From Flavihumibacter soli (GTDB taxonomy: Bacteria > Bacteroidota > Bacteroidia > Sphingobacteriales > Sphingobacteriaceae): DNA of 64,000 nucleotides. Where the stretch lies: assembly GCF_010692725.1 (NCBI RefSeq), contig NZ_JAAFZB010000088.1:1-64000 (forward strand), given 5' to 3'. Below, one piece after another: positions 18,191-18,526 of the stretch (position 1 is the stretch's first letter; each line of letters begins with the position of its first letter). A program made the position numbers and the translations under genes. The notes under the pieces are model-generated. The model ran no database searches and was not told where the DNA came from. It worked only from the letters and a program-made list of their open reading frames with translations.

Positions 18191-18297
18191 ATTTATACAG
18201 AAGTGGCGAGAGATCAGGCTCAATGACCCACTGACAACCCCCCAATCGGTTTTGGGGAAGGTGCCAATTCCTGCCCCTAACAAGGGAAACTATAAAT
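18191..18297 (+). promoter_or_regulatory. SAM riboswitch (SAM-I clan aptamer)
   Basis: The order of conserved blocks matches the SAM-I clan: P1 arms ATTTATA (18191-18197) and TATAAAT (18291-18297); a short P2 with AGTGG (18202-18206) paired to CCACT (18228-18232); the core ATGA (18223-18226) and ACAACC; a P3 of four G-C pairs (CCCC with GGGG); then GGTGCCAATTCCTGCC, the most conserved SAM-I stretch, and P4 CCCT/AGGG. SAM binding should stabilise P1. The 3' arm of P1 ends 10 nt before a small ORF, so SAM could hide its ribosome entry site. No T-rich terminator follows directly. Confidence 0.88.
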
Positions 18298-18307
18298 TTA
18301 TAAACTT

Positions 18308-18424
18308 ATGCAACTGGAAATCAATTCTCTTCCTCTCGATCTCGTTAAAGAAATCTCCATTTCACGACCATTCTTAATGGATATCTGCACGGCATACAGC
18401 TATATGTGCTGTTGCTGCCGCTAA
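18308..18424 (+). CDS. 38-codon leader ORF ending in four Cys codons
   Basis: A small ORF from ATG 18308 to TAA 18422-18424 lies between the SAM aptamer and metY. It ends SYMCCCCR; the consecutive Cys codons occupy 18407-18418, and another Cys is codon 27. Four neighbouring Cys codons at the end of a short ORF before a sulfur-assimilation gene are what a cysteine-sensing leader peptide would need. The Cys codons lie in the loop of a 12-bp stem formed by the codons for residues 26-29 and a downstream arm. The peptide is 103 bp upstream of metY. Translation is not proven; the interpretation is inference from codon content and position. Confidence 0.6.
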   Translation: MQLEINSLPLDLVKEISISRPFLMDICTAYSYMCCCCR

Positions 18425-18470
18425 GCGGTAAATTGTTTCAATAACAATTGCCGGTGCAGATCTTCTCTGC
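18383..18470 (+). promoter_or_regulatory. Alternative hairpins of the metY leader
   Basis: Arm 18383-18394 pairs with 18449-18461 in 12 bp with one bulged G, enclosing the Cys codons and the stop of the leader ORF. Two competing hairpins use the same 3' arm: CGG-TA-AATTGTT (18426-18437) with AACAATT-G-CCG (18443-18453), and GCAGA (18456-18460) with TCTGC (18466-18470). A ribosome waiting at the Cys codons would block the long stem and free the others. No U-tract follows, so any control is more likely translational or factor-dependent. Confidence 0.5.
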
Positions 18471-18526
18471 CAATTCTATCTATTCTGACGTCTAAAAATC
18501 ACATTCACTTAAAAACGAATTTCATC

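Follow-up and report, generated by a model that had tools for sequence, protein, structure and literature searches.

The leader of the metY gene in a 64,000-nucleotide stretch of Flavihumibacter soli DNA (the window) contains a SAM-I riboswitch aptamer and, close behind it, a short leader ORF (uORF) that ends in a run of cysteine codons, and the same arrangement is kept before metY in relatives. We propose, with a probability of roughly 0.64, that this is a two-stage leader in which the SAM-bound P1 helix of the aptamer would block the uORF and, when it does not, the progress of the ribosome through the Cys and Met codons would select between alternative RNA structures.

A SAM-I aptamer and a Cys-ended leader ORF precede metY

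The aptamer occupies positions 18190..18298 of the forward strand and matches RF00162 over the whole model with 68.6 bits (gathering threshold, 44.4). By sequence and structure score it is a SAM-I (S-box) riboswitch, and binding of SAM and repression by it are predicted. This agrees with the initial annotation, which had placed a SAM aptamer here with its P1 ending at 18297; the ATG at 18308 and the 38 codons ending Met-Cys-Cys-Cys-Cys-Arg-stop that it had described are likewise borne out by the window sequence. The uORF (18308..18424, forward strand), whose Cys-rich end and position are kept in relatives, begins 9 nt past the aptamer, encodes the peptide MQLEINSLPLDLVKEISISRPFLMDICTAYSYMCCCCR, and stops at 18422-18424. 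Its putative control codons, Met-Cys-Cys-Cys-Cys, lie at 18404..18418 on the same strand, with the four Cys codons at 18407-18418 followed by Arg and the stop, and are recognized by the enrichment of Cys and Met codons at the uORF ends of relatives. As had also been claimed, metY follows: the gene (18527..19852, forward strand) belongs to the O-acetylhomoserine/O-acetylserine (OAH/OAS) sulfhydrylase family (TIGR01326, 690 bits against a cut-off of 495). Downstream on this strand are a gene for a metX-like homoserine O-acetyltransferase (19893..20951), which scores highest with TIGR01392 (341 bits) and NF001209 (309 bits), in each case below the cut-off, and a homoserine dehydrogenase gene (hom, 20958..22196; NF004976, 321 bits, above cut-off), both of which are probably in one operon with metY. 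The gene 5' of the leader (16914-18035) has a cystathionine gamma-synthase model as its best match, below the cut-off of that model.

Bacteroidota promoters have the consensus TTG/TAnnTTTG, and a promoter-like site of this type, matching TTG-N21-TAnnTTTG, lies at 18104..18135 on the forward strand of the window. As the pattern TTG-N18..23-TAnnTTTG was present within 160 nt 5' of the aptamer at 50 of 71 metY loci, compared with 1 of 71 on the reverse strand, the aptamer, the uORF, and metY are probably carried on a single transcript. The source genome contains two SAM aptamers, the second of which is 5' of metH; the leader of the latter, when read in three frames, had no comparable ORF. We also note a cobalamin riboswitch aptamer (RF00174, 126.5 bits) on the reverse strand of the window at 47270-47456.

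The arrangement recurs in metY leaders of relatives

A MetY protein scan provided 80 loci in titled genome records that were picked by MetY similarity, ignoring what their leaders contained. Rfam detected a SAM aptamer in 71 of these loci which, together with 13 from the genus of the window (the window included), gave 84 metY leaders, or 83 after removal of one duplicate (L095, which has the uORF of L082). An ATG located 2-15 nt past the aptamer opened at least 15 codons in 81/84 leaders (80/83 without the duplicate); L161, L170, and L173 had no uORF under the rule applied. The spacing was narrow, with 73 of 80 uORFs starting 6-10 nt from the aptamer. Further, at least three Cys codons were found within the final 15 uORF codons in 65 of 83 leaders, and such uORFs came from records titled Pedobacter, Mucilaginibacter, Hymenobacter, Pontibacter, Rufibacter, Chryseolinea, and Saprospiraceae. 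The uORF, its position near P1, and its Cys codons are thus kept across Sphingobacteriales, Cytophagales, and Saprospirales, the three orders in which Mucilaginibacter, Hymenobacter, and Saprospiraceae are placed; this is the outcome that the initial annotation had looked for when it named the metY leaders of relatives as its check. A separately read leader from another genus of the same family (G026) has a uORF that ends VVCCMCCCCC-stop. The leaders are related, and all counts given here are therefore counts of non-independent events. The duplicate was excluded from most of them but kept in the 81/84 count, the 71-locus promoter counts, the three-frame Cys averages (81 uORFs), and the 12/80 rank count (see below), and L131 and L137 were retained despite an aptamer-metY distance of ~1.1 kb.

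Two observations were made alongside the scan. First, L149, L162, and L171 had no detected SAM aptamer, yet contained short Cys/Met-rich ORFs within 500 nt before metY (by eye, for example, MNIKQHQNSVKMHAMFHSMCMCCMYMCM in L149 and MKTLTFSLWLSYRNTYSMYGCCC in L171), and Cys/Met leader peptides without an aptamer may be common. Second, L113 contains a second SAM aptamer (L113:561-672), ~1.4 kb 5' of its metY aptamer.

Cys codons of the leader ORF are kept in frame

In the final 15 codons of 81 uORFs, Cys codons averaged 4.8 in frame, and the two alternative frames gave 1.5 and 0.33. Of 83 leaders, 52 contain a TGYTGYTGY run, which in 48 cases lies in the frame of the first ATG past the aptamer with no intervening stop, against an expectation of one-third (binomial p 7e-19, a value that is overstated because the leaders are related). 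The remaining four cases comprised two leaders without an ATG in the searched span and two with a Cys-ended ORF for which our rule chose another ATG or run. Across 19 non-overlapping pairs of related uORFs, the Cys columns (114 codons) differed 13, 14, and 29 times at codon positions 1, 2, and 3, and the non-Cys columns (640 codons) differed 131, 135, and 186 times. Changes at the Cys columns are mainly at the third base in these alignments, consistent with the synonymous Cys-codon changes that the initial annotation had asked for; TGT accounted for 230 and TGC for 138 of the 368 Cys codons in the 65 Cys-rich uORFs. The frame test and the conservation rule out a chance ORF, and they make it scarcely credible that the Cys codons are an RNA element only, that is, UGY repeats that pair downstream in an untranslated ORF: although the Cys stretch can pair downstream in some clades (see below), the bias toward the third base, the concentration of Cys in frame 0, and the presence of Met codons in the same frame all oppose such a reading. 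We conclude, on the sequence comparison, that the leader ORF has the run of control codons near its stop that characterizes a ribosome-mediated attenuator.

Copper is bound by both Cys and Met, and a nascent peptide rich in the two might itself act as a sensor (of copper or the redox state, for instance), in place of the supply of charged tRNA. There is a precedent in CruR, a copper-responsive uORF (DUF2946) that contains CXXC and a C-terminal RAPP at fixed spacing and that is described as acting through Rho (PMC9426467), and C..C is present in 58 of 80 metY uORFs, although it arises automatically within Cys runs. However, a fixed motif is missing from the metY uORFs: successive Cys residues are adjacent in 203 of 303 cases, the Cys count near the uORF end ranges from 3 to 11, RAPP is found in 0 of 80, and elsewhere the peptide shows little conservation. 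As the downstream genes are, in addition, those of methionine synthesis, we regard a peptide sensor as quite improbable and a uORF of the CruR type as rejected; the window uORF had no Pfam match at E 1. Four uORF peptides searched against NCBIfam at E 1 also gave no match, and their single Pfam match (E 0.083, below the cut-off) was taken as chance, so that no known peptide family was assigned. Elsewhere in the source genome, TGYTGYTGYTGYCG at two sites and CCCC-X-stop at one were judged, from their frames, to be chance occurrences.

Met codons accompany the Cys codons

When the final 12 codons of 79 uORFs were compared with the uORF body, Cys made up 39% against 1.7% (22-fold enrichment) and Met 11.2% against 1.1% (9-fold enrichment). 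A Met residue was present within the final 15 positions in 59 of 65 Cys-rich uORFs, and 120 of the 132 non-start Met residues in 80 uORFs were in the last third. Because Met is enriched beside the Cys codons, both sulfur amino acids are likely to be signals for the metY leader. The control codons fit the pathway, as Cys and Met codons precede a gene of the OAH/OAS sulfhydrylase family, a metX-like gene, and hom; to judge by these sequences, they match the pathway under control, as expected of a ribosome-mediated attenuator.

The codon content also shifts between lineages. Fewer than three Cys codons were present within the final 15 codons in 15 of 80 uORFs, and this was the case for 8 of 10 records titled Sphingobacterium. 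Three of these eight uORFs are near-identical and end in repeated Met/Arg/His plus Cys, and five end in RMR (the eight leaders are L132, L135, L138, L139, L141, L143, L145, and L148). We note that in L132, L138, and L139 the Met/Arg end of the uORF is predicted to be able to pair with a downstream segment.

Alternative structures are predicted around the uORF stop

In the window, a segment of the uORF just 5' of the control codons (segment A, 18383..18394, forward strand) is predicted to pair with a segment past the stop (segment B, 18449..18461, forward strand) in 12 bp with one bulge (-17.7 kcal/mol). Two hairpins are also predicted on this strand, H1 directly after the uORF stop (18426..18453; region z -2.93) and H2 behind it (18456..18470). 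Because B overlaps arms of H1 and H2, in which it would partly lie when not paired with A, the A:B helix and the two hairpins exclude each other and are, in the predicted fold of the window, mutually exclusive states. The last 60 nt of the window uORF set against the 80 nt past the stop gave an energy of -35.0, compared with -20.5 +/- 3.7 for shuffled sequences, and 0 of 1000 shuffles were as good.

Excess structure at this place was also detected among the relatives, where n varies between the structure and composition tests because leaders too short for a given stretch were excluded. The 70 nt from the stop codon had a mean z of -1.22 (n=77), with 29 leaders below -1.5 and 1 above 1.5, whereas the comparison stretches were less structured (uORF body, z -0.28, n=65; following 70 nt, z -0.29, n=26). 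Complementarity of the Cys end to the near downstream sequence (mean z -0.66, n=75; 15/75 below -1.5) exceeded that of the uORF start (0.00) and that to the far downstream sequence (-0.06, n=44), with the uORF body intermediate (-0.35), and was strong in few leaders, with 12 of 80 reaching one of the first five ranks among 100 shuffles. Pairing within clades was read from hand-picked sets of 9, 8, and 5 sequences, from which L120, L113, L116, L153, and L163 were omitted (the last four being Cytophagales-type rows that were used in the consensus alignments). Two-sided changes occurred in 5 of 17 pairs in the nine Pedobacter-titled leaders and in 6 of 18 pairs in the eight Mucilaginibacter-titled leaders. 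A CAGCAACA-like segment is the pairing partner of the Cys codons in the five Cytophagales-type leaders, with 7 of 8 pairs present in all five, but this pairing is mostly invariant and we give it little weight. Consensus folding past the stop of alignments from the genus of the window and from Sphingobacterium gave hardly any structure (energies -1.1 and -1.7).

We did not detect a U-tract after H2 in the window or a conserved U-tract terminator in 80 leaders; T5 runs between the stop and metY occur in 45 of 80 and are scattered, and a conserved intrinsic terminator was rejected. For this reason, we do not claim a classical trp-type attenuator for the metY leader. The most probable output is premature termination of transcription, and its likely assistance by Rho is suggested by the lack of a conserved U-tract terminator together with the C-rich, G-poor composition of the uORF: C exceeded G at +5..+75 in 72 of 80 metY leaders compared with 14 of 44 non-metY leaders, although C also exceeded G between the stop and metY (75/78), and the bias is therefore not specific to the uORF. 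The structures past the uORF could, as another output of the same control, govern ribosome access to metY or re-initiation with no termination at all. The lack of a conserved U-tract fits such a translational output, and translation attenuation is cited as the control of M. smegmatis cysteine genes (PMC13236596). We nevertheless consider it somewhat unlikely, as H2 in the window ends 56 nt 5' of the metY start, 64 of 80 leaders have 80-170 nt between the uORF stop and metY, and it is the 70 nt from the stop that carry the excess structure.

How the leader might work

Taken together, these features suggest the following sequence of events for the two-stage leader. At high SAM, the AU-rich P1 would be closed and prevent a start at the uORF AUG, the uORF would go unread, and metY-metX-hom would be off. 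Bacteroidota seldom use Shine-Dalgarno sequences, and inspection by eye revealed none in the AU-rich strand of the window P1. The uORF starts so close to the aptamer in 80 of 83 leaders that there is no room for a separate expression platform. SAM-I riboswitches that act on translation by placing the ribosome-binding site in the 3' side of P1 have been described (PMC2258182). With a gap of 9 nt before the AUG, SAM-bound P1 should hinder initiation at the uORF; we infer the gating of the uORF by SAM from this spacing. Action on translation at a distance is described for a SAM-II riboswitch (PMC9373788). At low SAM, the uORF would be read, and how fast the ribosome moves through the Cys and Met codons would report charged tRNA-Cys and tRNA-Met. 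The control codons themselves emerge from the comparison of leaders, and this function is the one we would attribute to them. A ribosome halted at the first Cys codon would cover part of A and allow H1 and H2 to form, whereas with no translation, or quick translation, A would pair with B. By analogy with classical attenuation, we infer that A:B is the off state and the stall the on state, and the sign of the response and the output of the leader are to be read in this conditional sense.

The family name of MetY (OAH/OAS sulfhydrylase) suggests a possible role in methionine as well as cysteine synthesis, in which case the leader would sense Cys, Met, and SAM. In the source genome, however, metY need not serve as the cysteine route, because a cysE-like gene (169 bits, cut-off 211) adjoins a PF00291 gene, which by its position would be cysK-like. 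Synthesis of Cys without MetY is therefore probably possible, and a supply of cysteine solely through homocysteine is unsupported. The Cys signal may instead report competition for sulfide or the share of MetY in cysteine synthesis.

The initial annotation knew of no account of this arrangement, and among the matches listed in an open-access library that covers few subscription journals we too found none in which a SAM riboswitch is followed in the same leader by a Cys or Met leader peptide. The combination of aptamer and uORF thus appears to be new, its two kinds of control being already known separately. Among the closest parallels is the Salmonella mgtA leader, in which a Mg2+-sensing RNA, described as a riboswitch, is combined with a short ORF, MgtL, that has proline codons as tRNA-charging control codons, and with an attenuator stem-loop (PMC6460261). 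According to the available portion of that paper, the MgtL ORF sequence joins the Mg2+-sensing pairing, whereas the metY leader has a complete SAM-I aptamer 5' of its ORF; the amino acid (proline, not Cys/Met), the phylum, and the pathway also differ. Polycysteine ORFs of mycobacteria and other actinobacteria (Canestrari 2020, as cited in PMC13236596) resemble the metY uORF in having a Cys run at the stop, before cys or cbs genes, and in lacking a conserved terminator, with Rho suggested (PMC1262725); they belong to another phylum and precede other genes, and the accessible text of PMC1262725 mentions neither a riboswitch nor Met codons. The uORFC-8-2 motif before cysS in Rhodobacterales is likewise a candidate for ribosome-mediated attenuation with tandem Cys codons but, as excerpted (PMC8632094), has two such codons, a terminator stem with a U run, and no riboswitch. 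In the SAM-I riboswitch of the Xanthomonas met operon, the second input is uncharged initiator tRNA-Met, which the expression platform binds directly, and the words uORF and leader peptide are absent from the main text of the source (PMC7270179). Tandem riboswitches also place two serial inputs in one leader, but both inputs are RNA, and leader peptide, uORF, and attenuat- are absent from the main text of a review (PMC9481103). Transcriptome papers on Flavobacterium and Bacteroides note leader-peptide candidates (PMC9723704 and PMC7366714), and the aptamer-uORF arrangement is not among these candidates in the available portions of the two papers.

SAM aptamers and Met/Cys ORFs outside metY leaders

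For comparison, we read 47 non-metY aptamers, consisting of the 30 best-scoring of the family scan and 17 of the genus (including the second aptamer of the source genome); the genus scan gave 36 aptamers in 20 genomes, of which 30 were read. Non-metY status was judged from the first downstream ORF, and the aptamer ends of L006 and L080 were estimated from a motif. An ORF of 15-90 codons starting at -3..+20 was found in 9 of the 47, and in a single case, before a metX-like gene, did an aptamer-adjacent ORF have at least three Cys near its end. When the ORF was allowed to start anywhere within 300 nt, 4 of 47 had at least three Cys near the end, and three of these led us to a class of leaders before TonB-receptor-like genes. 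All 16 leaders in this class (L010, L012-L014, L018-L020, L022, L023, L025, L026, L028-L030, L033, and L034; 15 from one genus and 1 from another) have an ORF of 15-60 codons that starts 97-126 nt past the SAM aptamer, and the Pfam Plug domain was found in both of the two genes scanned. A typical ORF is MKKTDELKSIYLNQTRYFRMRMPC, and an RMRMPC-like end is frequent; counted by eye, 12 of 16 have Cys as their last residue, and 13 of 16 contain RM with R or C next to it (RM[RC]). SAM aptamers are thus paired a second time with ORFs that mostly end in Met/Cys, at a spacing beyond what P1 could cover at the start. A uORF adjacent to the aptamer is not a property of all SAM aptamers; Met/Cys-ended ORFs occur farther downstream. 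The initial annotation mentioned neither this class nor the Met enrichment, the Cys-poor Sphingobacterium uORFs, and the structure past the stop.

The TonB-linked leaders indicate that SAM aptamers can be combined with a Met/Cys uORF even where the close spacing that underlies the gating argument is absent. They bear on an alternative in which two independent controls share the metY leader, the aptamer acting on transcription or RNA stability and the Cys/Met attenuator operating with its uORF ungated by SAM. Each module does appear able to stand alone, because they are found apart: Cys/Met-rich ORFs occur with no detected aptamer in L149, L162, and L171, the aptamer is retained in Algoriphagus, Belliella, and Lunatimonas leaders that have few Cys codons, and in the 16 TonB-receptor-like leaders the uORF is ~110 nt from the aptamer. 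What argues for coupling before metY is the narrow 6-10 nt spacing in 73 of 80 uORFs, with nothing in between to act as an expression platform. We consider independent controls unlikely, and the Met/Cys ORFs farther downstream have raised our estimate of it and lowered our confidence in the gating and in the wider reading that follows.

With the SAM-gated two-stage leader retained as the preferred reading, its wider form is a sulfur gate with three inputs, in which SAM would control the reading of the leader peptide and the peptide would gauge charged tRNA-Cys and tRNA-Met. As one joint proposal, this covers metY-metX-hom in several Bacteroidota orders, control codons that shift with lineage (Cys runs mostly, Met/Arg in most Sphingobacterium records), and the TonB-linked relative, and we lean only slightly toward it. 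If true, a metabolite riboswitch would be able to act through the translation of a sensor of tRNA charging and not on the gene itself, which would bring together two forms of RNA regulation that tend to be investigated separately. With the natural variety of control codons (Cys, Met, mixed, or few), the rules that set the specificity of leader peptides can be tested directly.

Some further leaders and repeats were noted. L069 (genome G056) has a SAM aptamer, next a uORF containing Cys and Met (AYCPMCGMKLCRV), and then, by sequence reading, a metX-like gene. The metH leaders of the genus (L001, L066-L068, and L070-L080) have no Cys uORF; past the aptamer they resemble one another in sequence, which may reflect a distinct expression platform. 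Finally, TGCTGCTGCTGTAAGTAA or a near copy of it is present at four places on contigs C5, C7, and C8 of genome G012 and is perhaps a repeated element.
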